The position numbers and the translations under genes are program-made. Positions 12,649 to 63,461 of a DNA stretch of 64,000 bases are shown one piece after another. The notes beneath the pieces were generated by a model. The model saw only the letters and a program-made list of their open reading frames with translations. It did not search any database and had not been told where the DNA came from. Numbering within the stretch: the stretch's first letter is position 1; each line of letters opens with the position of its first letter. This DNA comes from Microbispora amethystogenes (GTDB lineage: Bacteria; Actinomycetota; Actinomycetes; Streptosporangiales; Streptosporangiaceae). The stretch lies in NCBI RefSeq assembly GCF_016863015.1, contig NZ_BOOB01000019.1, forward strand, positions 62,001 to 126,000, written 5' to 3'.

Positions 12649-12805
12649 TCGTGTAGGGGTCATGCCTGCGGCCGGGGCGTACGGTCGTTCCGCAAGCAGG
12701 CCACACAGACACGCCTTTCGGTTCTGGCCCATATTCGACGGGCATCTGGCCCCGGGCTCTCCGCGAGTCCGGTGCCGTGTCATGCGGCAGTGGATCCGCT
12801 CGGGC

Positions 12806-13915: not shown

Positions 13916-13926
13916 GCGTGTTCCTC

Positions 13927-15015
13927 TCAGAGCTCGATCTCGACTGGGCCGGCCGCCACCGACACGCAGGGCTGGATCATCTCTCCCGCGTCTCCGTGCA
14001 CCTGGCCGGTCCGTACGTCACGTACCTGACCGGAGCGAAGGCGCGCGACGCATCCGTAGCAGATGCCCATGCGACAGCCGCTCGGCATGAGCACCCCCGC
14101 GTTCTCACCGACGGCCAGCAACGGCGTCTCGCCGTCGGCCTCGGCTTCTCGGCCGCTCCTGGTGAAGCGGACGTGTCCCCCCGAACCCGCTGCCGCTGCC
14201 GGCACCAGACTGAAGCGCTCGACATGGAGGCCGTCCGCGGGCCCGGTCCAGTACGCCGTGATGTCGTCGAGCATCGCCGGTGGCCCGCACGCCCAGATGG
14301 ACCGCTCGGTCCAGTCCGGGCAGAGCCGGGCCAGCTCCGCGGGCCGCAGCCGCCCCTCAGAGCGTGTGTGCCGTTCGTGCAGGCGCAGCCGCGGCCATCG
14401 CGCGGCCAGGCTCCGGAGCCGCCCGCCGAAGATGACGTCGGCGGATGTCGGCGCCGAATGAACCAGTACGACGTCCGGTCCGTCCGCATTGTCTAGACGC
14501 AGGCCGTCCAGCATCGCCATCACCGGTGTGATGCCGCTCCCGGCGGTGACGAACAGCAGGCGCGGCGGTGGTGGCTCGGGAAGGACGAACGCTCCCTCGG
14601 GCCGGCTCAGCCTGAGCACCGCCCCGGGCGCTGTGCTCCGCACCAGGTAGTTGGAGACGAGCCCGCCGCGCACGGCCTTTACCGTGATGGTGACGCAATC
14701 GCCGGACCTGCCCGGGGCCGACGACAGTGAGAAGGTGCGCCAGTGTCGCCGTCCGTCGATGTCGACGCCGATCCGGACCCATTGGCCGGGACAGTGTGCG
14801 ATCCAGCTCCGGCCCGGGCGGATGATCAGGGTCGCCGCGTCGGCGGTTTCCGCGTGCACCGCCTCGACTCGGCCGCACAGTTCCCCCGCGCCCCAGAGCG
14901 GATTGATCAACTCGAAATAGTCCTCGGGAACCAGCGGCGACGTCAGCCACTGCGCGGCTGTCGCCAGCCGGCGTAGGAGTGCCACAGGGGATGCGGACGC
15001 ACGCGTAAGGATCAC
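13927..15015 (-). CDS. Ferredoxin reductase with C-terminal [2Fe-2S] domain (desaturase partner)
   Basis: A 362-residue electron-transfer protein. It has a flavin-binding beta-barrel with the HWRTFSLSSAP motif (the RxYS-type FAD site, here RTFS), an NAD(P)H domain starting with LLFVTAGSGITPVMAML and a CGPPAML motif, and a C-terminal plant-type ferredoxin domain with CRMGICYGC plus a later Cys (IQPCVSV). It carries electrons from NADPH through flavin and the iron-sulphur cluster to the downstream DesA3-like desaturase, as Rv3230c does for DesA3 in mycobacteria. First gene of the two-gene operon; ATG at 15015. All cofactor motifs are intact. Confidence 0.92.
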   Translation of the reverse strand: MILTRASASPVALLRRLATAAQWLTSPLVPEDYFELINPLWGAGELCGRVEAVHAETADAATLIIRPGRSWIAHCPGQWVRIGVDIDGRRHWRTFSLSSAPGRSGDCVTITVKAVRGGLVSNYLVRSTAPGAVLRLSRPEGAFVLPEPPPPRLLFVTAGSGITPVMAMLDGLRLDNADGPDVVLVHSAPTSADVIFGGRLRSLAARWPRLRLHERHTRSEGRLRPAELARLCPDWTERSIWACGPPAMLDDITAYWTGPADGLHVERFSLVPAAAAGSGGHVRFTRSGREAEADGETPLLAVGENAGVLMPSGCRMGICYGCVARLRSGQVRDVRTGQVHGDAGEMIQPCVSVAAGPVEIEL

Positions 15016-47253: not shown

Positions 47254-48171
47254 TCAAAGGGCGAGGAGGAACGAGCGGATGGCGGGGACGAGGTCGGCGT
47301 GGGCGTCTTCGAGCAGGTAGTGACCCGCGCCGGGATACACGCGGATTCGCGCGGCGGGAAAACGCCGTCGCCATTCGTCCAGTACGGCGCGGTCGAAGAC
47401 CGGGTCGTCCGTTCCCCAGGCGATCAGCGTGGGCCGGTCGGCGAACTGCCCGAGCGACGCACCGGTGGCCTGGAGGAGCCGCCAGGAGGGGTCGCCGGGG
47501 CGCAACGGGATGTCCTGGACGAAGCGCTGGATGGCCACCCGGTGCTCGGGCCGGTCGTAGGGCGCCAGGAACGCCGAGCGCACCGGAGCCGGCATCCGGC
47601 GCCGGACCCCCAGCGGACGCCACGTGGCGCCGCGGGCGAAGAGGTTGTGGCGCAGGAACAGGCGGGTGCCCAGCCGGGTGTCCCGCAGCACCCGGTACGG
47701 CAGGCGCAGCAGGGGACGTACGCGTTCGCCGTGCGGGTTGGGAAAGGCCGCGGTGTTCAGCAGCACGAGGCGGGCGACCCGGTCGGGGTGGCGGCAGGCC
47801 CAGGCCATGCCGATCGGCCCGCCCCAGTCATGCAGGACGAGGGTCCACCCCTGTTCGGGGGCACCGGCGTCGCCGACGAGGTGGTCGGTCAGGGCGTCCA
47901 GGTCGTCCACCCGGGCGGCCAGGTCGTAGGGGTAACGGCCGGCCCCCGGCTTGTCCGACAGGCCCATGCCGATGTGGTCGGGGGCGACGCAGCGGAACTC
48001 GTCCCGCAGCGCGAGGATCGGCCGCCGCCACAGGTAGCTCCAGGACGGGTTCCCGTGCAGGAACAGCACCGGTTGCCCCGCCCCCTCGTCCAGGTAGTGC
48101 TGGCGCAGGCCGTCACGACGCGGGTGGGCGAACCACCGGGAGGTGAACGGGTAGTCCGGGAATCCGGTCAC
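47254..48171 (-). CDS. oleB: OleB-type beta-lactone decarboxylase (haloalkane-dehalogenase fold)
   Basis: A 305-residue alpha/beta hydrolase of the haloalkane-dehalogenase group. Asp115 is the nucleophile (VLHDWGGPI), an acid follows in WGTDDPVFD and the His is near 284 (GAGHYLLEDAH); FLHGNPSWSYLW supplies the oxyanion Asn and halide-site Trp. Alone this would read as a dehalogenase, but its place behind oleA, oleC and oleD identifies it as OleB, which removes CO2 from the cis-beta-lactone to give a cis-alkene. All catalytic residues are present, so the final product is more likely an alkene than a beta-lactone. The GTG at 48171 overlaps the oleD stop (GTGA). Last gene of the five-gene operon. 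Confidence 0.83.
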   Translation of the reverse strand: MTGFPDYPFTSRWFAHPRRDGLRQHYLDEGAGQPVLFLHGNPSWSYLWRRPILALRDEFRCVAPDHIGMGLSDKPGAGRYPYDLAARVDDLDALTDHLVGDAGAPEQGWTLVLHDWGGPIGMAWACRHPDRVARLVLLNTAAFPNPHGERVRPLLRLPYRVLRDTRLGTRLFLRHNLFARGATWRPLGVRRRMPAPVRSAFLAPYDRPEHRVAIQRFVQDIPLRPGDPSWRLLQATGASLGQFADRPTLIAWGTDDPVFDRAVLDEWRRRFPAARIRVYPGAGHYLLEDAHADLVPAIRSFLLAL

Positions 48172-49157
48172 CGGGCGCTCCCCGCGGACAGGTGGGCGGT
48201 GAGCCGGGCCAGTCCTTCCGCCATGCTCACCCGGGGCCGGTAGCCGAGATCGCGGCGGGCCGCGGAGATGTCGAACCAGTGCGCCGTCGAGGCCTGCTCC
48301 ACCAGGAACAGCAGCGGGGGCAGGCGCCGCGTCAACGGGAACCGGCGGACCCGCTCCAGCAGCCGGGCCGCCCGCAGGGCCGGTCCGACGGGCGCCCGGC
48401 GGGTCACCGGAGGCAGCCCGGCGGCGCGCAGCAGCAGGCCGAGCCATTCCCCGAAGCCGCAGGGCTCGCCCTGGGTGATGAAGTAGGCCCGGCCGGCGAG
48501 CGGTGAGCCCGGACGCAACCGGTCGAGCGCGAGCAGGTGGGCGTCGGCGGCGTTGTCGACGTAGGTGGTGTCGATGGTCTTGTCGGTCTCGCCCAGCAGC
48601 CACAGCAGACGGCGCCCCGCCACCAGCCTCGGCAGGAAGTGCGGATCTCCCGGCCCCCAGATGAGGTGCGGGCGCAACGCGACCGCCGTCACCCGCCCGG
48701 CCGCCGCCTCGGCGAGGACGAGCCGCTCGGCTTCGGCCTTGGTCCGCGGATAGGCGGCGGGAAAACGGCGGGCGTACGGCACGGACTCGTCCACGCCCTC
48801 CAGGTCCCGCCCGTCGTGGACGACGCTCGGTGAGGACGTGTGGACCAGGCGTGCCCCGTGACGCGCGCAGGCGTCCAGCACGTTCCGCGTTCCCGACACG
48901 TTGGTCTCCTCGTAGTCCCGGTCCCGTCCGTGTACGCCGGCCTTCGCGGCGCAGTGCACGACCGCCTCGCACCCGGCGACCGCGGCCGTCACCGCAGCGC
49001 GGTCGCGTACGTCGGCCAGGTGCTGGGCGACTCCGAGCGCCGCCAGCGCGGGGCTTCGGTGACGCTGAAGTGCGTGGACGGTGTCACCGCGGGCGGCCAG
49101 CCGCCGGCAGACGGCCTCGCCCAGGAAGCCGCCGCCCCCGGTCACCAGGACCCTCAT
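48168..49157 (-). CDS. oleD: OleD-type 2-alkyl-3-ketoacid reductase (extended SDR)
   Basis: A 329-residue NAD(P)H-dependent reductase of the extended SDR/3-beta-HSD family. It has the Rossmann motif TGGGGFLGEAV at about 6-16, an Asp (HLADVRD), the catalytic Ser/Tyr/Lys region (HTSSPSV; YPRTKAE) and the substrate part FITQGEPCGFGEWL. OleD reduces the 2-alkyl-3-ketoacid made by OleA to a 2-alkyl-3-hydroxyacid. The ATG at 49157 is chosen because it directly overlaps the oleC stop (TGATG); a frame extending to 49190 adds eleven residues inside oleC. Overlaps oleB by GTGA. Confidence 0.88.
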   Translation of the reverse strand: MRVLVTGGGGFLGEAVCRRLAARGDTVHALQRHRSPALAALGVAQHLADVRDRAAVTAAVAGCEAVVHCAAKAGVHGRDRDYEETNVSGTRNVLDACARHGARLVHTSSPSVVHDGRDLEGVDESVPYARRFPAAYPRTKAEAERLVLAEAAAGRVTAVALRPHLIWGPGDPHFLPRLVAGRRLLWLLGETDKTIDTTYVDNAADAHLLALDRLRPGSPLAGRAYFITQGEPCGFGEWLGLLLRAAGLPPVTRRAPVGPALRAARLLERVRRFPLTRRLPPLLFLVEQASTAHWFDISAARRDLGYRPRVSMAEGLARLTAHLSAGSAR

Positions 49158-50794
49158 CACCGGCCTGCCCGTACGCGCCGCGCGGCCCACCGGGCGAGCT
49201 CGTGCCGGCGGATCTTGCTGTTGTGCCGGGCGTCGACCGGGAACCCGCGATGGAACAGCACGTCCCGAATCCCCTCGGTGTGCGGATGGCGGGCCGCCAC
49301 GCTCAGGATGCCGGCCGTCACGCGAGCGTCGTCCCGGACACCCGGTTCGCGCTCCACGACCAGGACCGGACGCTGGGCGCCGGCGTAGCCGACGCCGACC
49401 AGCGCGGTGCGGCGGACCCCGGGTACGGCGGCGAAGACGGGTTCGACCTGGTCGGTGTGCAGGTCGCCGCCGACGGTGCGGACCCGTTCCGATCTGCGTC
49501 CGGCGAACCAGAGCCTGCCCTGCTCGTCGAAGCGGCCGACATCACCCATCCGGTGCCAGACTCGGTCCCCGTCGCGGATCCGGGCCAGCGCGGTCGCCTC
49601 CGGATCGTCCAGGTAGGGGTCGCTGACCGTGGGGGCGGCCACGACGATCTCCCCGATGGCGCCCGGCGGCACGACCAGATCGTCACTCCACCGCTCGACG
49701 GGGTCGTCGCCGAGGGCGATCACGCGCACCTCGGCGCCCGGGAGCGGGAGACCGAGGCAGGTGCCCGCCCCGGCGGCGGTGGCCGCGGCGTGCCCGGCGA
49801 GCAGGCGGCTCTCGATCGCGGCCACCGGCATGCACTCGGTGGCGCCGTACACCGACAACACCCGCGCGTCGTCGCGCAGGCAGCCGCGCAGGCGGTCCAT
49901 GACCGGCATCGGCAGCGGCGCCCCGGCGGACACCACGTCGCCGAGCGTGTCCAGCACCAGATCACGGGCGGCGCAGTGGCGCGCGAGCCGGTCCAGCAGC
50001 GCGGGAGGGGCGAACATCCCGGACACGCGGTAGCGCCGGATGTCGGCGACCAGGGCGGCCGGGTCGGCCCGCACCGGATGCCGCGGGTCCATGTCCGGGA
50101 TCACCACGGTCGCCCCGAACGCCGCCGCTCCGAGGGCGAACGGCGCGAACGTCGACAACACCGGCAATCCCGGTTCCACCGTGCCGAGTTCACCCAGCAG
50201 GGTGAGCTGCGCGGCCAGGTGCCGGTGCCGCAGCGGCACGCCCTTGGGCGGGCCGGTGGATCCGGAGGTGTACGCGATCAGCGCCAGGTCGTCCGGCCCG
50301 GCGTGGCGCCACAAATCCACCCCGGATTCCGCCTCGCGGGGCAGCCGCGCGGGGACGGTGACGGAGACGCGGACGTCCGGGGTCCAGCGCAGCAGCCTCC
50401 TGGCCAGCTGTACGGCGGGAATCGCGACGAACGCCTCGGGCGCCGCCTGGCGCAGGCAGCGCCTGATCGCGCCGAGCGGCAACCCCGGATCGACCAGCAC
50501 CGGCACCGCGCGGAGCCGTATCAGGGCGACGGCGAACGCGCCCAGTTCCGGGCCCGGCGGCACCAGCAGGGCGGTACGCATGCCCGGGCGGATCCCTGCC
50601 TCCATGAGGACCGCGACGGCATGGTCCACCGACCGCGACAGCTGCCCGTAGGTGGTGGCCGCCGGGCGACGGCCGCCGACCTGGCAGGCGATGACGTCGG
50701 GCTGCTCGCGAAACCAGCGTTCGGCGCGGACGATCAGTTCGCTGACCGGCTCGGCCGGGCCGGAGCCGCTCGGAGGAGTCACCTCTGTGGTCAC
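49157..50794 (-). CDS. oleC: OleC-type beta-lactone synthetase (ANL superfamily)
   Basis: A 545-residue adenylating enzyme. Visible motifs: the P-loop YTSGSTGPPKGVP (about 172), YGATE (about 320), MGDVGRFDEQGRLWFAGR and the C-terminal Lys region HNSKIRRHEL. In standard acyl-CoA ligases the Lys helps make the acyl-adenylate; in OleC the adenylate is attacked by the beta-hydroxyl of the same substrate to form a cis-beta-lactone. The call rests on the Ole gene set as much as on sequence. GTG 50794 is used as start; the 93-bp gap from oleA is the only real gap in the operon, and a slightly earlier start may exist. Confidence 0.86.
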   Translation of the reverse strand: MTTEVTPPSGSGPAEPVSELIVRAERWFREQPDVIACQVGGRRPAATTYGQLSRSVDHAVAVLMEAGIRPGMRTALLVPPGPELGAFAVALIRLRAVPVLVDPGLPLGAIRRCLRQAAPEAFVAIPAVQLARRLLRWTPDVRVSVTVPARLPREAESGVDLWRHAGPDDLALIAYTSGSTGPPKGVPLRHRHLAAQLTLLGELGTVEPGLPVLSTFAPFALGAAAFGATVVIPDMDPRHPVRADPAALVADIRRYRVSGMFAPPALLDRLARHCAARDLVLDTLGDVVSAGAPLPMPVMDRLRGCLRDDARVLSVYGATECMPVAAIESRLLAGHAAATAAGAGTCLGLPLPGAEVRVIALGDDPVERWSDDLVVPPGAIGEIVVAAPTVSDPYLDDPEATALARIRDGDRVWHRMGDVGRFDEQGRLWFAGRRSERVRTVGGDLHTDQVEPVFAAVPGVRRTALVGVGYAGAQRPVLVVEREPGVRDDARVTAGILSVAARHPHTEGIRDVLFHRGFPVDARHNSKIRRHELARWAARRVRAGR

Positions 50795-50887
50795 CGGCTC
50801 ACCACCGCACGCCGGCCGCTCGGGAGGGCCGCCCGCGTGGTCACCGTGCTCATCACCGCGCGTCGGCGGTTCCGTGACATCACCGGC

Positions 50888-51919
50888 TCACCACCGTACG
50901 ACGACGATTCCGGCGCTGGCCCCGCTGGCCAGGCCGACGAGGGCGACCAGGTCGCCGCGCCGCACCCGGCCCGAGCCGACCACCCGCGCCAGTTGCACGA
51001 GCAGCGTCGCCGCGACGAGGTTGCCGTGCTGGGCGATGGTGACGACGACCTTGCCCTGCGGGATGCGCACCTGGTCGCAGAACCACCACAGCGTCGGCAG
51101 CGTCGCCTGATGCACGCAGATGGCCGCGAAGTCGTCCCAGGTCAGCCCCAGATCGGCGAGGGGTTTGTGGAACACGGCGTAGTCGATGTTCTCGATGCCG
51201 CGCACCAGCTCGACGGAGTCGACGACGAGCGGCCCGATCGTGGGCCGGCCCGCCGACGGATCGGTGGTGAGGTTGTCCACCGCGGAGACCGCCGCCTGCC
51301 ATCCGGCGGAGTACGCGGAGAACCGGTGGGCGAGCACCCCCGGTTCGGAGGCGGCCTCCAGCAGCAACGCGGCGCCGGCGTCGGAGACGGTGTAGGACGC
51401 GGCCACGGTGATGTACTCCTCGGCACTGGCCACGGTCCACGGCGTGCCGGCGGTGGGCAGCTCTCCGCAGCAGACGAGGACCCGCCGATGACGGCCGGCG
51501 GAGATCAGCGCGTCGGCCACCTGGATGGCGTTCAGCGCGCTGTTGCAGGCGTTGCGTACGTCGAACACCGGGCAGCAGGCCCCGATCTTGGCGGCGACGA
51601 TGTGCCCGGTGGCCGGCTCGACGGCGTCGGACGACACTCCCGCGTAGACGAGCAGATCGAGGTCGGCGGCCCGCAGGCCGTTGTCCTCCAGGACGCGGCG
51701 GGCGGCGTGCGCCGCCAGGTCGGACGGTTTCTCGTCGGGGAGGGCGACGTGCCGGCGCCGTACCCCGCTGTGCTCGTGGATCAGCCCCCGGGGCAGGTCC
51801 AAGGTGGGGTTGCGGTCGGCGAGCCGGTCTTCCAGTTCGGCCGTGCTCAGCGTGGTCTCCGGCAGGTAGGCGGCCACTCCCGCCAGCCGGGTGTGCGACT
51901 GGGTCACTGCGGTCCTCAC
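50888..51919 (-). CDS. oleA: OleA-type head-to-head acyl condensing enzyme (KAS III-like)
   Basis: A 343-residue thiolase-fold enzyme. The catalytic Cys125 (NACNSALNA), His270 (CVHQATLP) and Asn300 (QHGNLVAA) have nearly the spacing of Xanthomonas OleA (Cys143, His285, Asn315). OleA joins two acyl thioesters by Claisen condensation to a 2-alkyl-3-ketoacid. It starts only 12 bp after the PKS stop, so the two are co-translated, which suggests that the PKS product is one of its acyl donors. GTG 51919 is the first start; GTG 51907 has a better-placed GAGAGGTGAGG. No KS III ACP-docking feature can be judged from sequence alone. Confidence 0.87.
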   Translation of the reverse strand: MRTAVTQSHTRLAGVAAYLPETTLSTAELEDRLADRNPTLDLPRGLIHEHSGVRRRHVALPDEKPSDLAAHAARRVLEDNGLRAADLDLLVYAGVSSDAVEPATGHIVAAKIGACCPVFDVRNACNSALNAIQVADALISAGRHRRVLVCCGELPTAGTPWTVASAEEYITVAASYTVSDAGAALLLEAASEPGVLAHRFSAYSAGWQAAVSAVDNLTTDPSAGRPTIGPLVVDSVELVRGIENIDYAVFHKPLADLGLTWDDFAAICVHQATLPTLWWFCDQVRIPQGKVVVTIAQHGNLVAATLLVQLARVVGSGRVRRGDLVALVGLASGASAGIVVVRW

Positions 51920-51931
51920 CTCTCGTTCGCT

Positions 51932-54900
51932 TCAGACCGGCTGCCCGGTACGGGGGCCCGCGGCGGCGGGCCGCTGTTCGCCGCGCGGCCCGAGGCGCAT
52001 GAGGATGCTGGAGGCGATGTCGGCGACGGTGCCGCCGCCGCGCATCAGCTCCATGGGCGGGATGTCGATGCCGAACCGCCCGCGGATGGAGGTCAGCAGT
52101 TCGGTGGCCATCAGCGAGTCCAGGCCGTACTCGTCCAGCCGCCGATCGCGGGCGATCTGGTCGGCCGGGACGAGCATGACGGTGGAGAGCAACCGGGTGA
52201 TCTGCTCGGTGACGTACGCGTAGCCCTGCTCGTAACTCATCTCCGCCAGCAGCGACGGCAGGTCGGGCCCCTGCTCCTCCGCGCCGGGCGGCAGCACCAG
52301 GGACAGCCACGGACGCCGCAGGCCGGGCAGGACCTGCCGCAACCGGCCCCAGTCGCAGCGGCCCACCATGGCGACGTCGGCGTGCTCGCCGAGCATGGCC
52401 TCCACGGCGTCCAGCGCCCGGGCGGGCGGCATCGGCGGGATCCCGGCCTTGGCCAGCGCCTCTCCCTGCCTGCCCCGGGTCAGCACCCCGGTCTCCGCGA
52501 GCGCGCCCAGGCAGGCCGTCAGCGCGGGCAGGCCCTCCCGTCTCCGCCGCCGGGCCAGCGCCTCCAGGAACAGGTTCGCGGCGACGTACGAGGTCTGGCC
52601 GATGTTGCCGACGGTGGTGAGGGAGGAGTACATGACGAACAGGTCGAGGGGGAGATCCCGGGTCAGTTCGTCAAGCACCATGGCGCCGGCGACCTTGGGA
52701 CGCAGGACGGCCCGGATCCGGTCGTCGCCGATGTCGGCGAGCAGGCCGTCGTCGAGGTGCATGGCCGCGTGGACGACGCCGCGCAGCGGATGGCCGCCGC
52801 CGTCCAGGTCGCGCAGGACGCGCCGCATGGCGTCGCGGTCGGCCACGTCGGCGGCGTACACGCGGACCTCCACCCCCGATCTCTCCAGTTCCGCCAGCAG
52901 AGCGGGAGCGTCGGGCGTCTCGGCGCCCCGGCGGCCGACCAGGGCCAGGTGGCGGGCGCCCCGCTGCGCGAGGCGGTGGGCCGTCGCCGCGCCGAAGCCG
53001 CCCAGGCCGCCCGTGACCAGATAGGTCCCCTCCGGGTCCAGGCGCGGCGCCGTCCGCTGCGGCCGTACGGTGACCGGTTCATCGCGTGGGTCGAAGGACA
53101 CCACGACTTTTCCGATATGCCGGGAATGGCGCATCATGGCGAAGGCGTCGGCGACGCGGGCGGCCGGAAACACCGTGTGCGGCAACGGCCGGAACCGCCC
53201 GGTGCGATAGAGGGGCGCGGCCTGCGCCGTGCTGTCCGCCATCAGCTCGGGCGCCTTCCACATCAGCGTGCCGATGTCCACGCCGTGGAACGCGAGGTTG
53301 TCGGAGAAGGGGCGCAGCAGCAGGGACCTGTTCTGGTAGATGTCCCGTTTGCCGAGCTCGATGAACCGGCCGCCGTGCCGCAGGCATTCCATGCCCCGGG
53401 TGATGGCCTCACCGGCCAGCGAGTTGAGCACGATGTCCACTCCCCGGCCTCCGGTCAGCTCCCTGACCTGCTCGGCGAAGTGCAGGCTGCGCGAGTCGAG
53501 GACGTGGTCGGCTCCCATCGCGAGCAGCAGGTCGCGTTTGGCGGCGGTGCCGGCGGTCGCGATCACGCGGGCGCCGTGGTGCCGGGCGTACTGCAGCGCG
53601 GCCAGGCCGACCCCGCCGGCGCCGCCGTGGACCAGGATCGTCTCTCCCGCCCTGACCCGTGCGCAGTAGCCCAGCGAATGGTGCGCGGTGGCGAAGGCCA
53701 TCGGCATGGTGGCGGCTTCGGTGAAGGTCATCCCCTCGGGTAAGGGGACGGCCACCCACGCCTTGACCCTCGCGTGACTGGCGAACCCGACGGGTCCCGC
53801 CGCCATGACCCGGTCACCCGGCCGAATATCGGTGACGCCGGCGCCGACGGTGGTGACGATCCCGGCGCACTCCAGGCCCAGTTCGTGCCCGCCGAACACC
53901 GCTTCGACGGCCTCGGCGGGCAGCAGGTTCACCGCCTGCATCACGTCGCGGTAGTTCAGCCCGATCGCCCGCACCTCGACCACGACCTCGTCGGGCTCGG
54001 GCTCCGGCATCGGGATCTCCTCCCAGGCCAGCGTGTACGACAGCCCCGGATCACACACCTTGAGCCGATAGGCGCCGCCCGAGCCGACGGCCAGGTCGCG
54101 GCCGTGCTCGCCCGGCTCCAGCAGCCGTGGTACGAAACGTCCCCGGCGGGTGAGCAGGATCTCGTCCTCCTCGTCCGGTGCGAGCAGTTCCGCCGCCAGG
54201 CGGCCGGCGTCCCGCGCGGCGTCACCGGTGGGGTGCAGGCAGAGCCGGCGTATCGCCGGTCGCGGCTGCTCGTTACCCAGCGAGCGCGTCGTCCCCCAGG
54301 TCGCCGCGTCCTCGGGGTGGAGCCGGACGTCGGTGAGGTGGGGCTCCGGCAGCGCGCCACAGGGGCGGACCACCAGCCACACCGTGGCCGTGACGTGCTC
54401 GGGCAGCTGCTCGCAGGCCAGCGCGACGGCCCGCAACGCCGCCGCCCGCCGGGTGATCCGCTCGACGGCCGCCTTCGAGTCCGTGTTGTCAGACGCCTCC
54501 GGCTCGGAGTTGCCGGTCTCCTTCGGCTCGGTGCCGCCGGTCGCCTCCGGCTCGATGCCGATGGTCGCCTTCGGCTCGATGCCGCCGGTCGCCTCCGGCT
54601 CGGTGCCGATGGTCGCCTTCGGCTCGGTGTCGTCGGTTCCGCCCAGGACGACCGCGATGGTGACCGTCTCGGCGGTGGGCGGGAAGTGATCGGCCCAGTG
54701 GTCGGGGTCGTCGCTGAGCGGCGAGTGCAGCACGTCACCGCCACGGCTTCGCAGCAGAGCCCCCAGCTCGGCCGTCAGCGCACCGGTGCCGTCCTCACCG
54801 GCGAGGATCCACGTCCCGGCCGCGTCCGGTACGTCGTGCAGAGCGGCCGGAGCGGCCTCGGAGGCGGCCGGTACGTCGTGCGCGGTGTCCGCACCACCCT

Positions 54901-57900
54901 CCATGGTGACCGGAGCACACTCGTCGACGGCCGGAACGCGCGGCGTGGTGGCCGCGGTGCCCTTGGCGGTGGCCGCGGCACCATCAGCGGCGTCCGGTAC
55001 GGCTTGCACGGCGGCCGGGGTGCCCGTGGCGGTGGCGAGCATCACCGAGAAGTCGCCGGCCGCGCGTTCGTCGTCGTCACCGGTCTGGACGACCTCGGTG
55101 TAACCGGCCTCCGCCAGCACCTGCGGCCATTCCTCCCGGGACAGCAGCGGCGAGCGCGGGCGCAGGTGCCGGTCGGTGAAGTCCCAGAACTCCTCCTGCA
55201 CGCCGAGGAACGGCAGCAGGGTCCCCACCCGATGCGGTTCGGCGACGAGCAACTGGCCGCCGGGCACCAGAAGAGCGGACAGGTGGCGTAGCGCGGCGGG
55301 CAGGTCACGGGCCAGGTGCAGGCTGTTCGCCGCGACCACGAGATCGAATCCGCCCGCGGTCACCCCCTGCCCGACCGGGTCGGCGTCCAGGTCGAGGACG
55401 GCGTAGTCGACGAAGTCGAAGCCGGTGAAGCGCTGCCGCAGCCGGGTCAACGCCGCTTCGGCGACGTCGGTGACCAGGTAACGGGTGCGTTCGGCGGGCA
55501 GGACGGGCAGCAGCATGGCGGTGGTGCCGCCGGTCCCCGCACCGGCTTCCAGGACACGGAGCGGCCGGTCGGCCGGCCATCGCCGGACGATCTGCTCGAC
55601 GAGCGCCCGGGTGATCCGGTTGGTGAACAGGTTGACCGGCCCGATGTCGTGGAACTGCTCGATCAGCTCCTGGCCGCCGCCGGAGCCCAGGACCTCGGAG
55701 CCGGTGCGCCGGCCCGCGAGCAGTTCGGGCAGGCACCGTCCGACCCGTACGGTCAAGGCGCTCTGGGCGGCGAAGGCGGCACCCCGGGTGAGAAGGTCCC
55801 GGTGCAGATCTCGGATCAGGTTCCGGTTCAGGTCTCGGTTCAGGTCATGGTGGGGGTCGCGGTGGGCGTCCCCATCGGAGTTCTGGTCCGCGTCTCGGTC
55901 GGAGTCCTGGTCGGCGCCGCGCGGGCCGGACGGGTTCGCATCCGGAGGCGTCGGGCCGGTGCCCCCTGACGCCGGCCGTTCCGAGAGGCCGTGCCGCTCC
56001 AGCAGGGGCAGGGCCGCGTGGAGCATCCGCCGGTGGTGCGCCTCGGGGCACGCCTCGATCAGGTCCTCGACGCCGATCGGCCGCCCGTCGCTCACCCCGC
56101 CGCCCGACTCGGCACTCAGCTCGCCGAGCGCGCCGGCCAGCGTACGGGCGAAGACCTCTTCGAGCCGTGCCGCGTACCGCGGGTAGTCCAGCTCGTGCCA
56201 CGCGGAGCGCAGCCGGTCGATCCGCTCGGCCGCGCCGGACAGGATCTCGCCGGGGCCGGGCGCCGGCCACGGCTCGGCGGGCGCGTCCGCCCGGGGCGCG
56301 GCCCGGAGCGCCGTCTCCCACCGGGTGACCGGGGTGACGTGGACACCGGGCATCCGGCGGAGCCGGCAGCCCTCCACCTCGGCGGCGATCCTGCCGTCGC
56401 CGTCGGCGACCACGAGGTCCCAGCAGACCTCCTCGGCACTGCTGGAGCGTTCCCGCACGTAGACCAGCCCTTGCGCCGACGGCGTTCCCCACAGGCGGAC
56501 GGAGCCGATCGCGGCGGGCATGTAGCCGCGGCCCGACCGCAGCGACTCCACCAGCCACAGCACGCCGGCCTGCAGCGCGCTGTCCAGCACCACCGGATGC
56601 ATCTGGTAGCGCCCCTGCCCCTGCTCCGGGCACGAGTAGGCGCCCAGGACCTCCCGCTCGCCCATCCACAGCTCGGTCAGGACCTGGAACTCCGGCCCCC
56701 ACACCATCTGTCCCTCGGCGGCCCGCGCGTAGTATCCGGGCACGTCCACAGGCGTGCCGATGCGGGCACGCAGCGCGGCCACGTCCAGCGGCGGCGGGAC
56801 CGGGCGCAGCAGCGGCCGTACCCGGGCCCGGAAGTGCTCGCGGGGCTGCTCGGACTGCCGGCCGGCGCTGGCCACGGTGACCACTCCGGTCTCGGCGCAG
56901 AGCGACGTCTGCGCCCACACCGGATCGGCGGCGGCCTGCGACGGCACCACCATGGCCCGGCTGATGTCGACCCTGTCGACCTCCACCGCCTCGGCGGCGT
57001 CCGGCAGGGCGAGGCGGGCGGCGGCGACGGCCATCTCCACATAACCGGTGGCCGGCATGACGGCGGCGCCGCCGGCCCGATGATCGGCCACCCAGGGCAC
57101 CCGTACGCGGTCGATCTCCCCCTGCCAGGTGGGGTCCAGCACCGGAAGCCGCTGTCCGAGCAGCGGATGCTGGATCGTCGTGTCGACGTCGGTCCGCACC
57201 CAGGTGTGCGGTCCGCCGATCCAGTGCCGTTCGCGTTGCCAGGGATAGGCCGGCAGCGATCGCACCGCGCCGGGGCGGGGGAAGTACCGATCCCAGTCGA
57301 GCCGTGCACCGGCCGCGACGAGTTCGGCGACCGCGCGGCGGACCCGCGCCGGGCCCGGCTCATCCCGGCGCAGAGTCGCCACGACGGCCGCGCGCACCCG
57401 CGCGGCGCCGCTGATCCGGCGCAGGTACGAGCGGAGCACGGGATGCGGGCCGATCTCCAGCAGCACGTCGAAGCCGTCGCCGAGCACCCGCTCGGCCGCC
57501 GCGGCGAACCGGACCGGCTCCCGGACGTTCCGCCACCAGTACGTCGCGTCCAGTTCCTCGCCCCGGACCAGGTCGCCCGTCACCGTGGACACCAGGGGGA
57601 CCCGCACCGGGCCGGGCCGGAGCCCGGCGAGTCCGTCGGCCAGGGGCTGCCGCGCCGGATCCATGGCGCCGCTGTGGAAGGCGTAGTCCAGGTCCAGCTC
57701 GCGGAAGAAGATCCTGCGTGAGGAGAGGTCCTCGCCCAGGGACTTGAGCGATCCGTCCGGTCCGGCGATCGTGACGTCGCGGTCGGAGTTGACCGCCGCG
57801 AGCTCCAGGTCCGGGTAGCCGGCCAGGACCTGCCTGGCCGCGGTCTCCGGCAGCCCGAGCGCGGCCATCCGGCCCCGCCCTCTGGTTATCGACTGCGCGA

Positions 57901-59932
57901 CGCCGCGCTCGGAGATCACCTGAGCCGCCTGGGCGAGTGACAGGGCGCCGGCGGTGTAGGCGGCGGCGACCTCGCCCACGCTGTGGCCGAACACCGCTCC
58001 CGGCCGTACGCCCGCCGCCCCGAGCATCTCCACCAAACCGGCCTGTACGGCGAACAGCAACGGCTGCGCCACTTCGGTGGCCGAGAGGCGTGACCGTTCG
58101 GCGGGCAGGGACAGCTCCTCGATCACCGACCAGCCGAGCCGATCGGACAGCTCGGCGTCGACCGCTTCCACGGCCGAGCGGAAGTCGCCGTCGGAGAGCA
58201 GGTCGGCGCCCATCCCGGCCCACTGTGAACCGTTGCCGGAGAACACGAACGCCACCCGCCCGTGCTCCACCGCCTCCGACTCCGCCACCGCCGCGTCCCC
58301 GGCTCCGAGCCGTCCGCCCACTGTCGGCCTATCGGATGAACCGGCGGGGGTGGCCGGCTCCGGGGCGTCCACCAGGCGCGCCAGCGCCCGCGCCGCCGCC
58401 CCGGCGGTGCCGGCCAGCACCACGGCCCGATGCCGGTGGCCGCCGCGCCGCCGGGTCGCGGTGTAGGCCGCGTGGTAGAAGTCCCGCTCGTCGAGCGACG
58501 CGAGGTGCGCGGCGGTCCGTTCCACGGCCTCCCGCAGCGCCGGCCGGCTGCGCGCGGACACGACGACGGGCAGCGCTCCCGCCTGCTCGGTTCCGTACGG
58601 TCCGGGGACGGGTGGTGCGGCCAGCGCCACATGGGCGTTGGCGCCCCCGAACCCGAAGGAGTTGACTCCGACCACGGGCCGCTCGCCTGCTCCGTCCAGC
58701 GGTCGCGGCTCGGTGGCGACGCTCAGGCCCAGGGCGTCGAAGTCGATCCGGGGGTTGAGCGTGGCGGCGTGCAGCGAGGGCGGGATCATCCGGTGCCGGA
58801 GCACCAGCAGGGCCTTGAACAGCCCCGGCATGCCGGAGGCGGGCTCCAGGTGCCCCAGGTTGGACTTCACCGAGCCGATGGGCAGGGCTCCGCGGGTGCG
58901 CCGGGTGCCCAGCGCCCGCCCCAGCGCCCGGCACTCGGCCGGATCGCCGGCCTGGGTGCCGGTGCCGTGCGCCTCCACGTACGCGATCTCGTCGGGGCCG
59001 ACGCCCGCCGTGGCGTACACCTGCCGTAACAGGGCCTCCTGCGCGTCGGCGTTCGGCAACGCCAGCCCTCTGGTGCGGCCGTCGTTGTTGGTGGCGGCTC
59101 CGACGACGACGCCATGGATGCGGTCTCCGTCGGCGATCGCGTCGGCCAGGCGCTTGAGCACCACCACACCGCCCCCCTCCGCGCGGACGAACCCGTCGGC
59201 GTCGGCGGAGAACGCCCGGCACCGGCCGGTCGGCGACAGCATCGACGCCTGGCTGAAACCGATGAAGGGGCCCGGGCCGAGCAGCAGGTTGACCCCGCCG
59301 GCCAGCGCCACCCGGCTGGATCCCTCCGCGAGGGACCGCCAGGCCCGTTCCACGGCCGTCAGCGACGAGGAGCACGCGGTGTCGATGCTCATGCTCGGCC
59401 CGCGCAGGTCGAAGAAGTGCGACAGCCGGTTGGCCGCGATGGACAGGGTTCCCCCCGACATCGAGTACGGGCCCAGGGCGCCCGGCTCCAGCGCCTGCAT
59501 CGTGCCGTAGGCGGGATCCGAGATGCCGACGAACACGCCGGTGTCCGTGCCCGCCAGCACCGCCGGGTCGATGCCCGCGTCGTCCAGGGCCTCGACCGCC
59601 ATCTCCAGGAGCAACCGCTGCTGCGGGTCCATCGAGGCGGCCTCTTTGGGGGAGATGCCGAAATAGGCGGCGTCGAAGGCGGTGACGTCCTCGTCGAGGA
59701 AGGCCCCAGCCCGGGTGTAGCTCCGGTTCGGCCTCGGCGTGGTGTCGTCGACGAACCGATCGGCCTCGAACCTGCTCGGCGGGATCCGGCCGACCAGATC
59801 GGCGCCCTGCCGCAACGCCTGCCACAGCCCGTCCAGGTCTGCGATCCCACCGGGCAGACGGCATCCCACGCCCACCACCGCCGCCGCGTGCTCCGGCCAG
59901 GCCTGTTCCGCTGTCGGGTCGTCCGCGCTCAT
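51932..59932 (-). CDS. Single-module highly reducing type I PKS, KS-AT-DH-cMT-ER-KR-ACP
   Basis: 2666 residues from ATG 59932 (AGGAAGG 5 nt upstream). KS about 15-440 with Cys187 (DTACSSS), HGTGT and KSNLGH. AT about 560-840 with GHSVGE and YAFH, predicting malonyl-CoA. DH about 920-1195 with the His in VADHRAGG and Asp in HPVVLDSALQ. A C-methyltransferase about 1380-1635 has an intact SAM motif (VLEAGAGTGGTT). After a structural region comes ER (HGGAGGVGLAALQ, about 2101), KR with GGLGGFG, an LDD motif (B type) and Tyr in QTSYVAAN, then ACP with Ser near 2606 (YGLDSLMA). All domains look active, so each cycle can give a saturated, optionally alpha-methylated unit. There is no thioesterase, no loading module and no docking domain. 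The layout recalls fungal HR-PKSs and suggests iterative use. First gene of the operon with oleA, oleC, oleD and oleB. Confidence 0.93.
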   Translation of the reverse strand: MSADDPTAEQAWPEHAAAVVGVGCRLPGGIADLDGLWQALRQGADLVGRIPPSRFEADRFVDDTTPRPNRSYTRAGAFLDEDVTAFDAAYFGISPKEAASMDPQQRLLLEMAVEALDDAGIDPAVLAGTDTGVFVGISDPAYGTMQALEPGALGPYSMSGGTLSIAANRLSHFFDLRGPSMSIDTACSSSLTAVERAWRSLAEGSSRVALAGGVNLLLGPGPFIGFSQASMLSPTGRCRAFSADADGFVRAEGGGVVVLKRLADAIADGDRIHGVVVGAATNNDGRTRGLALPNADAQEALLRQVYATAGVGPDEIAYVEAHGTGTQAGDPAECRALGRALGTRRTRGALPIGSVKSNLGHLEPASGMPGLFKALLVLRHRMIPPSLHAATLNPRIDFDALGLSVATEPRPLDGAGERPVVGVNSFGFGGANAHVALAAPPVPGPYGTEQAGALPVVVSARSRPALREAVERTAAHLASLDERDFYHAAYTATRRRGGHRHRAVVLAGTAGAAARALARLVDAPEPATPAGSSDRPTVGGRLGAGDAAVAESEAVEHGRVAFVFSGNGSQWAGMGADLLSDGDFRSAVEAVDAELSDRLGWSVIEELSLPAERSRLSATEVAQPLLFAVQAGLVEMLGAAGVRPGAVFGHSVGEVAAAYTAGALSLAQAAQVISERGVAQSITRGRGRMAALGLPETAARQVLAGYPDLELAAVNSDRDVTIAGPDGSLKSLGEDLSSRRIFFRELDLDYAFHSGAMDPARQPLADGLAGLRPGPVRVPLVSTVTGDLVRGEELDATYWWRNVREPVRFAAAAERVLGDGFDVLLEIGPHPVLRSYLRRISGAARVRAAVVATLRRDEPGPARVRRAVAELVAAGARLDWDRYFPRPGAVRSLPAYPWQRERHWIGGPHTWVRTDVDTTIQHPLLGQRLPVLDPTWQGEIDRVRVPWVADHRAGGAAVMPATGYVEMAVAAARLALPDAAEAVEVDRVDISRAMVVPSQAAADPVWAQTSLCAETGVVTVASAGRQSEQPREHFRARVRPLLRPVPPPLDVAALRARIGTPVDVPGYYARAAEGQMVWGPEFQVLTELWMGEREVLGAYSCPEQGQGRYQMHPVVLDSALQAGVLWLVESLRSGRGYMPAAIGSVRLWGTPSAQGLVYVRERSSSAEEVCWDLVVADGDGRIAAEVEGCRLRRMPGVHVTPVTRWETALRAAPRADAPAEPWPAPGPGEILSGAAERIDRLRSAWHELDYPRYAARLEEVFARTLAGALGELSAESGGGVSDGRPIGVEDLIEACPEAHHRRMLHAALPLLERHGLSERPASGGTGPTPPDANPSGPRGADQDSDRDADQNSDGDAHRDPHHDLNRDLNRNLIRDLHRDLLTRGAAFAAQSALTVRVGRCLPELLAGRRTGSEVLGSGGGQELIEQFHDIGPVNLFTNRITRALVEQIVRRWPADRPLRVLEAGAGTGGTTAMLLPVLPAERTRYLVTDVAEAALTRLRQRFTGFDFVDYAVLDLDADPVGQGVTAGGFDLVVAANSLHLARDLPAALRHLSALLVPGGQLLVAEPHRVGTLLPFLGVQEEFWDFTDRHLRPRSPLLSREEWPQVLAEAGYTEVVQTGDDDERAAGDFSVMLATATGTPAAVQAVPDAADGAAATAKGTAATTPRVPAVDECAPVTMEGGADTAHDVPAASEAAPAALHDVPDAAGTWILAGEDGTGALTAELGALLRSRGGDVLHSPLSDDPDHWADHFPPTAETVTIAVVLGGTDDTEPKATIGTEPEATGGIEPKATIGIEPEATGGTEPKETGNSEPEASDNTDSKAAVERITRRAAALRAVALACEQLPEHVTATVWLVVRPCGALPEPHLTDVRLHPEDAATWGTTRSLGNEQPRPAIRRLCLHPTGDAARDAGRLAAELLAPDEEDEILLTRRGRFVPRLLEPGEHGRDLAVGSGGAYRLKVCDPGLSYTLAWEEIPMPEPEPDEVVVEVRAIGLNYRDVMQAVNLLPAEAVEAVFGGHELGLECAGIVTTVGAGVTDIRPGDRVMAAGPVGFASHARVKAWVAVPLPEGMTFTEAATMPMAFATAHHSLGYCARVRAGETILVHGGAGGVGLAALQYARHHGARVIATAGTAAKRDLLLAMGADHVLDSRSLHFAEQVRELTGGRGVDIVLNSLAGEAITRGMECLRHGGRFIELGKRDIYQNRSLLLRPFSDNLAFHGVDIGTLMWKAPELMADSTAQAAPLYRTGRFRPLPHTVFPAARVADAFAMMRHSRHIGKVVVSFDPRDEPVTVRPQRTAPRLDPEGTYLVTGGLGGFGAATAHRLAQRGARHLALVGRRGAETPDAPALLAELERSGVEVRVYAADVADRDAMRRVLRDLDGGGHPLRGVVHAAMHLDDGLLADIGDDRIRAVLRPKVAGAMVLDELTRDLPLDLFVMYSSLTTVGNIGQTSYVAANLFLEALARRRRREGLPALTACLGALAETGVLTRGRQGEALAKAGIPPMPPARALDAVEAMLGEHADVAMVGRCDWGRLRQVLPGLRRPWLSLVLPPGAEEQGPDLPSLLAEMSYEQGYAYVTEQITRLLSTVMLVPADQIARDRRLDEYGLDSLMATELLTSIRGRFGIDIPPMELMRGGGTVADIASSILMRLGPRGEQRPAAAGPRTGQPV
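54470..54625 (-). repeat. Repeat insert in the PKS between cMT and ER
   Basis: Six or more copies of an eight-residue unit of the type TEPxATxG (TEPKATIG, TEPEATGG, IEPKATIG, IEPEATGG), encoded by a 24-bp DNA repeat, in a linker within the structural KR-like region. In frame; length is probably variable between strains. Confidence 0.85.
55790..55912 (-). repeat. Asp/Asn-rich repeat linker in the PKS before the cMT
   Basis: Degenerate short repeats encode a charged linker (DQDSDRDADQNSDGDAH; DLNRDLNRNLIRDLHRDLL) between DH and cMT. In frame and probably flexible. Confidence 0.7.
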
Positions 59933-60072
59933 GTCGCCCTTCCTGCTCAGGTCCACCACGACTCGGCACTTCGCCGGTCGGCTCGCTGTCTCGGCCAGGG
60001 TTCACCGTGTCTGACGCGCACACCTGACACACGCCAGGCGGATCGGTCACCATGTCATCACAACTGCTGGTA

Positions 60073-60464: not shown

Positions 60465-60856
60465 TTCTGGACACCGGGGTTCTGATCGCCGCCGAGCGGG
60501 GCAAGGCGTCCGTGGACACGGTGATCGGGGACGCGGATGACATCGCGATCGCGGCGATCACGGTGGCCGAGTTGCTGGTCGGTGTGGAACTTGCCGACGA
60601 GACCAGGCACGCGCCCCGGCAGGCCTTCGTGGACGAAGTTCTCGCGTTGATTCCAGTGGAGGAGTACACCACGGACGTCGCCAGGATCCATGCGCGTCTC
60701 ATGGCGCATGTCCGGCGACAGGGTAAGGCACGAGGAGCGTACGACCTGCTGATCGCGGCGACGGCCGCCGCGACCGCGAGGACTGTGATCACGATGGATT
60801 CCTCGGCCGCGTTCGACGATCTTCCCGGTGTGCGCGCTCAGGTCGTTCCCCGCTGA
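60449..60856 (+). CDS. vapC: VapC-type PIN-domain toxin RNase
   Basis: A 135-residue PIN protein. The acidic metal-binding residues are visible: Asp in LILDTGVLI, Glu in TVAELLVGVE, Asp in GAYDLLIAAT and Asp in ITMDSSAAFDDL. VapC enzymes cut tRNA or rRNA and stop growth. GTG 60449 overlaps the antitoxin gene by 16 bp, the usual coupled arrangement. Full length and apparently active. Confidence 0.88.
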   Translation: MARRLILDTGVLIAAERGKASVDTVIGDADDIAIAAITVAELLVGVELADETRHAPRQAFVDEVLALIPVEEYTTDVARIHARLMAHVRRQGKARGAYDLLIAATAAATARTVITMDSSAAFDDLPGVRAQVVPR

Positions 60857-60888
60857 TTCGCCGGTGACATCCCCTGCCGGAGGTTCGG

Positions 60889-63461
60889 ATGGAGCTGTGG
60901 GAGCGCTCCGGGCAACTGGAGCTTCTCGGTGGTCTGCTGCGCGAGACCGCCCACGGCGGCCGCGTGGCGGTGGTGGCCGGCGAGGCCGGGATCGGCAAGT
61001 CCGTGCTCGTGACCGAGTTCGCCCGGCGGTGCGGACCGGCGGCGTGGGTGCTCTGGGGTGGCTGCGACCGGCTGATCACCCCCCGGGCGCTCGGCCCCCT
61101 GCACGACATCGGCCGCCAGACCGGAGGCGCGCTGGCCGAGCGGCCGAGCGGCTGAGCGCCGGCGCCACCCGGGAGGAGCTCTTCACGGCGTTCCTGGACG
61201 CGATCTCCGGCCCCGCGCAGCGCCCGCGCCCGGTCGTCGTCGTGGAGGACGCCCACTGGGCCGACGAGGCCACGCTCGACTGGCTGACCTGGTCGGCCCG
61301 GCGGATCGGACGGACGCCGGTCCTGTTCGCGGTGACCTACCGCGACGACGAGGTGGGCGCCGAGCACCCGCTGCGCGGCGCCCTCGCGACCCTGCCCAGC
61401 GCGATCACGCGACGCGTGGCGCTGCCGCCCCTGTCGCGCGCGTGCGTGGCGGAGCGGGCCCGCCTGACCGGGCGGGATCCGGAGCCGGTCCACCGGTTGT
61501 CCGGCGGCAACCCGCTGCTGGTGACCGAGCTGCTGAAGGCGGAGGGGCGGGCGGCGCCGGCCACCGTACGGGACCTCGTCCTCGACCGGCTGCGGTTGCT
61601 GCCGCGGCCCGCCCGGGAGCTGGCCCACCTGGTGTCGGTGATCCCGACCCGCGCCGACGCCGCCGTCGTGGCGGGAGCGCCGGACCTGGTCGACCTGTGC
61701 GTCGACGCGGGGGTGCTCGTGCCGTCCGGCGACGGTGTGGCGTACCGCCACGAGTTGCTGCGCGGCGCGGTGGAGGAGTCGCTGTCGCCCGCACGCCGCG
61801 CCGCGCTGCACCGGCGGGTGCTGGGCACGCTGGCCGGAACCTCCGGAGTCGACCCGGGCCGTCTGGTCCACCACGCGACGCGAGCGGGCGACGAGGCCGC
61901 CGTCCTGCGGTACGGACAGGTCGCGGGGGCCGACGCCGCCCGGCAGGGCGCCCATCGGGAGGCCGCCGGGTACGCCGACCGGCTGCCGGCCCCGCGACGA
62001 GCCGAGCTGCTGGAGGCCTACGCGTTCCAGGCGTACCTGGCCGGGCTGGCCGAGGAGGGGTTGCGGGCCCGGCGGGCGGCGCTGGCCGTACGCGAGGAAC
62101 TGCGCCAGCCCGGACCGGCCGGGGAGGACCTGCGCTGGATCTCCCGGCTCGCCTGGTGGGCGGGGGACGCGCGGCAGGCCTGGGAGGCGGCCGAGCGGGC
62201 GGTCGCCGTTCTGGAGACCGAGCCGCCGGGCCGGCCGCTGGCCATGGCCTACAGCAACCGCTCCCAGTTGCACATGCTCGCGGGCGAGCGGGAGGCGGCG
62301 GTCTCGTGGGGGGAGCGGGCGCGCGCCCTGGCCGTCCGGCTGGGCGATGTGGAGACCTCCGTCCACGCCGAGATCAACGTGAGCACCGCCCGGCTCGTGG
62401 GCGGTGACGCCAGCGCGGCCGCGGCGCTGCGGGAGGTGCACGAGCGCGCCTCGGCCCTCGGGCTGGCCGACCACGCCGCCCGGGCGCTCGTCAACCTGGC
62501 GACCACGCTGGTGCAGCTCGCCGAGTACGAGGCCGCCGCACCGGCGGTCGAGCGCGCGCTGGCGTACGCCACGCAGCAGGACCTCGACGGCTACCTGCAG
62601 TATCTGCTCGGCGTGCGGGCGGGGGTGCGGCTGGCGCGTTGCGACTGGGCCGGCGCTCTGGCCGACGCGGACGCCGCGCTGGACCGGCCGGTCAGGGACG
62701 GGGTCGCCGTGGTCCCCGCGCTGCTGGCGCGGGGCCGGATCCAGGCGGCCCGGGGCGACCGCGAGGCGCGGGCCACGCTCGACGAGGCCGCCCGCCAGGC
62801 CGAGCGCACCGGTGAGGTGCAGCGGGTCTGCCCAGTGGCGGCGGCCCGCTCGGAGTGCTTCCTGCTGTACGGCGACCCAAAGCGGGCCGCCGAGGAGGCC
62901 CGGCACGGCCTGGACCTGGCCGTCCGGGCCCGCCACCCGGTGTACGCCGGGGAGCTGACCTACCGGCTGTGGCGGGCCGGCGAGACCGGGCTCCCCCGTG
63001 TGGAAGCCGGGCCGTACCGGATGATGATCGACGGAGACTGGGCCGGCGCGGCGGCGGAATGGGCCCGGCGCGGGGCCGCGTACGCGCGCGTCGAGGCGCT
63101 GGCGGGCGGTGACGCGGGCGCCGCGGCGGAGGCCCTGCGGGTCCTCGACGAACTGGGGGCCACGCGGGCGGCGGGCGGCGTGCGGGCCGAGCTGAGAAGG
63201 CGAGGTCTCACCCGCGTGCCGCGCGGCCCTCGCCCGGCGACGGCCGCCAACCCCGCCGGCCTCACGCCGCGCCAGGCGGAGGTGCTCGCGCTGGTGGCCG
63301 AGGGGCTGACCAACGCCGCGATAGCCGCGCGCCTGTCGTTGTCGGTCAAGACCGTCGATCACCACGTCTCCGCGTTGCTGGGCAAGCTCGGGGTGGCCAC
63401 CAGGGGTCAGGCGGCCGCGGCGGCGCGCCGGCTGGACCTGACCGGGAAGCCCGCAAATTAG
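60889..63461 (+). pseudogene. LuxR-family ATPase regulator broken by an 8-bp tandem duplication
   Basis: From ATG 60889 the frame encodes the start of an STAND-type AAA ATPase (Walker A GEAGIGKSVL at about residue 33) and stops at a TGA at 61153. The rest is in another frame from about 61146: GATREELFTAFLDAISGPAQ, Walker B-like VVVVEDAHWADEATLD, a long TPR-like region and a C-terminal LuxR HTH (LTPRQAEVLALVAEGLTNAA; LSVKTVDHHVSALL). The break is an exact duplication: GAGCGGCC (61138-61145) next to GAGCGGCT. Removing 8 bp restores one chain of about 855 residues. Such large LuxR proteins often control biosynthetic operons, so loss may silence or free the PKS-ole operon. A sequencing error is possible but less likely for an 8-bp tandem copy. 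Confidence 0.82.

Follow-up and report, generated by a model that had tools for sequence, protein, structure and literature searches.

Why does a gene for a single-module polyketide synthase (PKS) head an operon that encodes a complete set of OleABCD enzymes, and could the PKS supply the chain that OleA condenses? We addressed this question for a locus of the soil actinomycete Microbispora amethystogenes that lies in a stretch of 64,000 nucleotides (the window), itself part of an 8.1-Mb genome.

The operon and its enzymes

The gene order, read directly from the sequence, is PKS, oleA, oleC, oleD and oleB, all on the minus strand between positions 47254 and 59932. Re-derivation of the gene calls confirmed the common strand, the coordinates and the junctions given in an earlier sequence-only reading: the PKS and oleA are 12 bp apart, oleA and oleC 93 bp apart, and oleC/oleD and oleD/oleB overlap by 1 and 4 bp, respectively. 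Many relatives start OleA four codons later, a start that would widen the first gap to 24 bp. The phrase 'fused in one operon' from that reading is correct as regards a single operon, but no proteins are fused.

The PKS gene (51932..59932) ends with a stop at 51932 and encodes 2666 aa from ATG 59932 or 2675 aa from an alternative GTG at 59959; the ATG is preceded by AGGAAGG and is the likelier start. Pfam places every domain in one protein, a type I PKS of KS-AT-DH-cMT-ER-KR-ACP composition. The ketosynthase (KS; 58766..59881, residues 27-398 from GTG 59959) carries Cys/His/His motifs, the acyltransferase (AT; 57305..58249) a YAFHS motif, the dehydratase (DH; 56339..57169, both parts matched) HRAGGAAVMP and LDSALQ, the C-methyltransferase (cMT; 55097..55612, residues 1450-1621) LEAGAGTGG, the enoylreductase (ER; 53099..53995) HGGAGGVG, the ketoreductase (KR; 52496..53029) LDD, Ser and Tyr motifs, and the acyl carrier protein (ACP; 52010..52207) GLDSLM, all on the minus strand. 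The ACP is the last domain and nothing follows it, in agreement with the earlier description of a single-module reducing, methylating PKS without a thioesterase. We compared 14 active-site motifs across 50 PKS reading frames, some of them cut by locus ends. Each of the 23 long frames (from loci of the OleA clade described below, L069 and the split-contig copy L206) kept all 14 with minor substitutions, and in these frames the AT motif was AFHS or PFHS. We take this motif to be of the malonyl type, and the methyl groups would therefore come from the cMT. The best full-length match of the PKS among solved structures was mycocerosic acid synthase (9d2y), which is likewise a single-module reducing PKS; its chain is released by a separate enzyme. 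Mycocerosic acid synthase differs in using methylmalonyl-CoA, in having no cMT and in its length, the solved chain being 2124 aa.

The remaining minus-strand genes provide the complete, clustered Ole set that had been claimed. They encode OleA (50888..51919), a thiolase-fold head-to-head condensing enzyme; OleC (49157..50794), a beta-lactone synthetase; OleD (48168..49157), a 2-alkyl-3-oxoalkanoate reductase; and OleB (47254..48171), a haloalkane-dehalogenase-like beta-lactone decarboxylase matching the alpha/beta hydrolase family. The best NCBIfam matches were PRK09258 for OleA (147 bits, under the cut-off of 285), the olefin models NF045786 for OleC (541 bits, under 900) and NF042422 for OleD (368 bits, under 580), and haloalkane-dehalogenase models, all under cut-off, for OleB. 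OleC also matches the ligase model PRK09274 at 528 bits, over its cut-off of 478.

Catalytic residues are intact, as judged by alignment, in the enzymes where they were compared. Glu101, Cys125, His270 and Asn300 of OleA align with E117, C143, H285 and N315 of Xanthomonas OleA, which we take to be the catalytic numbering of that enzyme (partly matched by structure entry titles). These four residues are kept in 23 of 23 clade rows; an OleA outside the clade (L086) has Asp in place of the catalytic Asn, and two aligned FabH sequences have Phe where OleA has Glu. The predicted OleA model (pLDDT 91.8) has a thiolase fold. A fold search with this model placed a FabH at the top and the first OleA structure seventh, and thus did not tell OleA from FabH, the model matching both. 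In OleB, HGNP, Asp115-Trp116, Asp256 and His284 are invariant among 14 aligned sequences, and presumably provide the nucleophile, acid and His by analogy with dehalogenase motifs. Tyr136 and Lys140 of OleD are invariant in 16 aligned sequences.

Proposed pathway and known systems

We think it reasonably likely that these genes encode one lipid pathway, in which a chain made iteratively by the PKS is released and condensed by OleA and then converted by OleD, OleC and OleB into a cis alkene. The products would probably be methyl-branched internal alkenes or related lipids. We infer iterative use of the PKS because the module stands alone: malonyl units would be added onto a starter, methyl groups would be taken from SAM, and the largely or fully reduced chain would be left on the ACP. 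OleA would take this chain onto Cys125, thereby releasing it, and with Glu101 as base would condense it with a second acyl thioester, which could come from the PKS again or be a fatty acyl group. OleD would then reduce the keto acid, OleC would close the beta-lactone, and OleB would decarboxylate it to a cis internal alkene that is methyl-branched on at least one side. Because the PKS lacks a thioesterase and oleA comes directly after it, and by analogy with Pfa synthases, we propose that OleA releases the chain through condensation; the sequence-only reading had made the same suggestion, which remains plausible. Supply of both chains by the PKS, giving polymethyl-branched, isoprenoid-like internal alkenes without isoprenoid chemistry, is a tentative extension that we regard as possible but doubtful. 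If the last cycle were methylated and that chain acted as the nucleophile, the Ole enzymes would give a trisubstituted alkene.

The sequence-only reading knew of no Ole cluster with an iterative highly reducing PKS, but supply of Ole enzymes by a PKS has a precedent. According to excerpts of two papers, a Pfa synthase feeds OleA, which is proposed to accept the chain directly from the ACP (PMC6463001); pfa-like genes are found together with ole genes and frequently lie close to them (PMC3098273). The Shewanella Pfa and OleABCD system, whose product is hentriacontanonaene, thus resembles the pathway proposed here in that OleA receives its acyl chain from a PKS-type synthase. It differs in that the Pfa synthase is the product of five genes, pfaA-E (PMC6463001, same excerpts), whereas the PKS of the window is one KS-AT-DH-cMT-ER-KR-ACP polypeptide with one ACP and a cMT. 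In the OleA tree, seven rows from other phyla, most with a Pfa-like KS upstream, form a long separate branch. The OleABCD enzymes of Xanthomonas, described with fatty acyl-CoA substrates in the part of PMC7064751 consulted, are of the same four types, with the OleA catalytic residues kept; unlike them, the window's enzymes fall below NCBIfam cut-offs and their operon is headed by a PKS gene. Producers of lipstatin and nocardiolactone are reported to have oleACD without oleB (PMC7064751, same part). Their clusters share OleA, OleC and OleD type enzymes in actinomycetes with our locus, but here oleB is present, as it is in 22 of the 23 clade loci.

Within the open-licence PMC literature, preprints excluded, the portions of text retrieved held no single-module methylating PKS with ole genes, and Pfa was the only precedent. 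No PKS of the KS-AT-DH-cMT-ER-KR-ACP kind appears in the excerpts of the OleA survey PMC7064751, and a Gram-positive olefin survey (PMC7158056) lacks six terms, among them polyketide, Streptomyces, Nonomuraea and Actinomadura. Another iterative PKS is the subject of PMC13389473, in which the term OleA is absent. As far as these portions extend, a single-module methylating PKS at the head of an ole operon is new, and coupling of a PKS to Ole enzymes is itself precedented.

Conservation of the five-gene unit

Searches with OleA (E <= 1e-40) matched 6 of 15 genomes of the genus and 148 of 341 genomes of the family, the family searches scoring the best 6 candidates per genome for OleA and the best 5 for KS. 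Besides the window, 43 OleA places had at least 53% identity; 42 of these were examined (G138 was left out), together with 18 weaker ones. The order PKS-oleA-oleC-oleD-oleB was present in 23 of 61 loci, window included (L047-L056, L058-L066, L068, L069 and L085 being the others). The PKS of L061 is cut by the contig start, leaving only ER-KR-ACP visible, and that of L085, in which the AT match is in two pieces and no PKS frame longer than 1500 aa was recovered, is perhaps broken by a frameshift. A species-wide contig scan with an OleD alignment and two short peptide patterns covered 84,980 species, one genome each; 518 of 535 stretches were confirmed and the best 80 of the 518 were kept. The same five-gene order occurred in 18 of these best 80, including L117 with its PKS cut, from Planotetraspora, Microtetraspora, Microbispora, Sphaerimonospora, Nonomuraea, Actinomadura and Thermocatellispora; these 18 loci overlap those from the family genomes.

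A tree of 69 OleA rows, from which L098 (18 aa) and L156 (83 aa) were left out as shorter than 250 aa, placed the window's OleA in a clade (support 99/96) whose 23 rows come from 23 genomes. This clade includes Microbispora, Planotetraspora, Nonomuraea, Actinomadura and other genera. Every one of the 23 clade genomes has the PKS, which in 22 lies directly upstream of oleA on the same strand, although such clade and genome counts are not independent because the genomes compared are related. The remaining clade row, L067, is on a contig that stops next to oleA, and the PKS of that genome lies near the edge of another contig (L206). The genes oleC, oleD and oleB follow oleA in 22 of the 23 clade loci. 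The exception is L057 (genome G175), where a PKS-oleA pair with motifs kept has no oleC, oleD or oleB in the 7.4 kb downstream; no OleD was detected in this genome at E <= 1e-50.

A KS of at least 78% identity was present in 23 of 23 clade genomes compared with 1 of the 318 other family genomes (341 searched), a line chosen after the list was seen. That one genome, G262, has its own PKS-oleA-oleC-oleD-oleB. Lowering the line to 74% gave 6 of the 318: G262, G149 and G160, where the PKS adjoins an oleA; G079 and G167, with no ole gene near it; and G243, where it is accompanied by oleC and a partial oleD. The PKS tree gathered 23 of 24 PKS-oleA rows, and L187, in one clade (99/99); the other PKS-oleA row, L080, groups with ole-free PKSs and comes from a PKS-oleA-oleD locus without an oleC or oleB match. 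In a phylum-wide sample, where the best 4 candidates per genome were scored, the only one of 396 genomes with a KS match at E <= 1e-170 was the window's own. Because the five-gene order recurs across species, the association of PKS and ole genes is not due to chance, and the non-random PKS-oleA linkage expected by the sequence-only reading was borne out. That reading would have been refuted if homologues of the PKS never accompanied ole genes elsewhere; the opposite was found, in this clade and in Streptomyces and Lentzea.

The genes flanking the unit in the window were searched in 45 loci. An S8 protease gene beside oleB had strong matches in L047 and in L049 and L111 (judged by length, one and the same contig), and a 30% match in L125. 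Of the 15 genus genomes, 7 have this gene; four of the 7 lack an OleA match (G005, G008, G010 and G011), and in the protease stretches of those four no further shared sequence longer than 150 bp joins on. A large LuxR-family regulator (60828-63461), divergent from the PKS, had a full-length match in L047 only and a DNA remnant in L048, a result that rests on the loci reaching this far because 19 of the 45 stop short of the upstream side of the PKS. The regulator may not be part of the unit. Matches to flanking genes are sparse, which leaves the five genes as the most likely extent of the conserved unit. The flanks compared showed no conserved regulator, transporter or tailoring gene beside them, an absence that would fit a membrane lipid better than an antibiotic.

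Other partners and alternative explanations

PKSs of this family also meet homologues of oleA, oleB, oleC and oleD in other orders. In Streptomyces orinoci and S. roseoverticillatus (KS 70% and 67% identical), the PKS adjoins a divergent oleA homologue (38-39%), with a convergent oleC and then oleB and oleD. S. morookaense has the PKS and a divergent oleA on one contig and a PKS end, oleC, oleB and oleD on another. The order in Lentzea jiangxiensis is oleA-PKS-oleB-oleC-oleD; genes for a KASIII-ACP protein and another KS come next. A second locus of Nonomuraea candida (L071, and L143 6019-20955, one contig as judged by length) has oleA, the PKS and an MMPL gene, with oleB, oleD and oleC on the opposite strand and a stand-alone FabF-like KS.

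Several further arrangements were observed. The ole-linked Streptomyces PKSs L149 and L165 have a degenerate SAM-binding motif in the cMT, and may make unmethylated chains. Some Nonomuraea loci (L073, L075, L077 and others) have a KS match and oleC, oleD and oleB near oleA, with no adjoining PKS of the family. In Allokutzneria (L137:4268-19377 and L146:1218-16392), oleB, oleA, oleC and oleD are followed by a different PKS with two KS matches in a row (33-36% identical), perhaps an assembly-line PKS beside ole genes. Loci L139, L141, L158, L162 and L178, from metagenome-assembled genomes of Planctomycetota and other phyla, have, upstream of oleA, oleB, oleC and oleD, two KS matches spaced by about 1 kb, a pair that resembles the KS-CLF of Pfa.

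Neither partner is exclusive: some related PKSs stand apart from ole genes, and some related oleACDB sets lack the PKS. Twenty further PKS loci were examined (G130, G246, one G264 copy and the G177 split contig were left out), and 18 of them, two of which overlap in one genome, had no oleA, oleB, oleC or oleD match above 35% identity. The other two are the split-contig case L206 and L187:6211-15865, where a PKS without an ACP stands beside oleC and a partial oleD, perhaps as a decayed version of the five-gene unit. An MMPL gene adjoins the PKS in L188 and L189 (KS 75-76% identical, no ole genes), and in L199:3827-12462 the end of a related PKS gene has a 4-bp overlap with a stand-alone thioester reductase gene, which may offer another way to release the chain. 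Thus, partners seem to vary within the PKS family. Conversely, oleACDB is present in G278, a genome with no KS match at E <= 1e-150. In a separate OleA clade, 13 of the 16 rows have no adjoining PKS of the family in the stretches examined, some of which end at contig edges. The linkage noted by the sequence-only reading is conserved in the clade, and the PKS family as a whole is not tied to ole genes.

Such loci bear on the alternative that the Ole enzymes use ordinary fatty acyl chains while the PKS makes a separate lipid with an unlinked release, the two sharing only regulation. The PKS-free oleACDB of G278 and the ole-free PKSs of the wider family are what this would lead one to see. We nevertheless consider it unlikely, given the contrast in KS occurrence between clade and other family genomes at both identity lines, the several gene orders that join PKS and ole genes, the missing thioesterase and the retention in G175 of PKS and oleA without oleC, oleD and oleB.

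Alternatively, the end product could be a PKS-derived beta-lactone of the lipstatin or nocardiolactone type rather than an alkene. Loci L087-L104 (OleA 42-47% identical) had been taken as canonical oleA with an oleBC fusion, an assignment dropped after Pfam analysis of L088, where the 810-aa protein encoded after the oleA gene (11414-14922) is a glycosyltransferase/AMP-ligase fusion. Two L091 frames had no family match in Pfam, and the rows marked 'canon' in the OleA tree are to be read as glycosyltransferase-linked or unchecked OleA, only L088 being settled. The L088 gene set is like one read as a beta-lactone cluster in the excerpts of PMC7064751, and to that extent favours a beta-lactone product. 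OleB, present in all but one clade locus and with its putative catalytic residues invariant, argues against such a product in the five-gene unit, which we think quite improbable.

A priming role for OleA, akin to that of KASIII, would fit the loci of Lentzea, Streptomyces and some Nonomuraea in which oleA precedes the PKS or diverges from it, as well as the fold that OleA has in common with FabH, but is very improbable given the retained OleA-type catalytic Glu and the oleD, oleC and oleB genes, for processors of OleA products, kept beside oleA.

The pathway from PKS through OleA to alkene, if correct, would add methyl-branched polyketide chains to the fatty acyl substrates of head-to-head hydrocarbon synthesis, and would make OleA a polyketide release enzyme that acts through C-C bond formation. 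It would also provide a compact five-gene set for branched hydrocarbon production. Finally, it predicts branched bacterial hydrocarbons in cultured, named strains such as Microbispora rosea, Planotetraspora thailandica and Nonomuraea candida.
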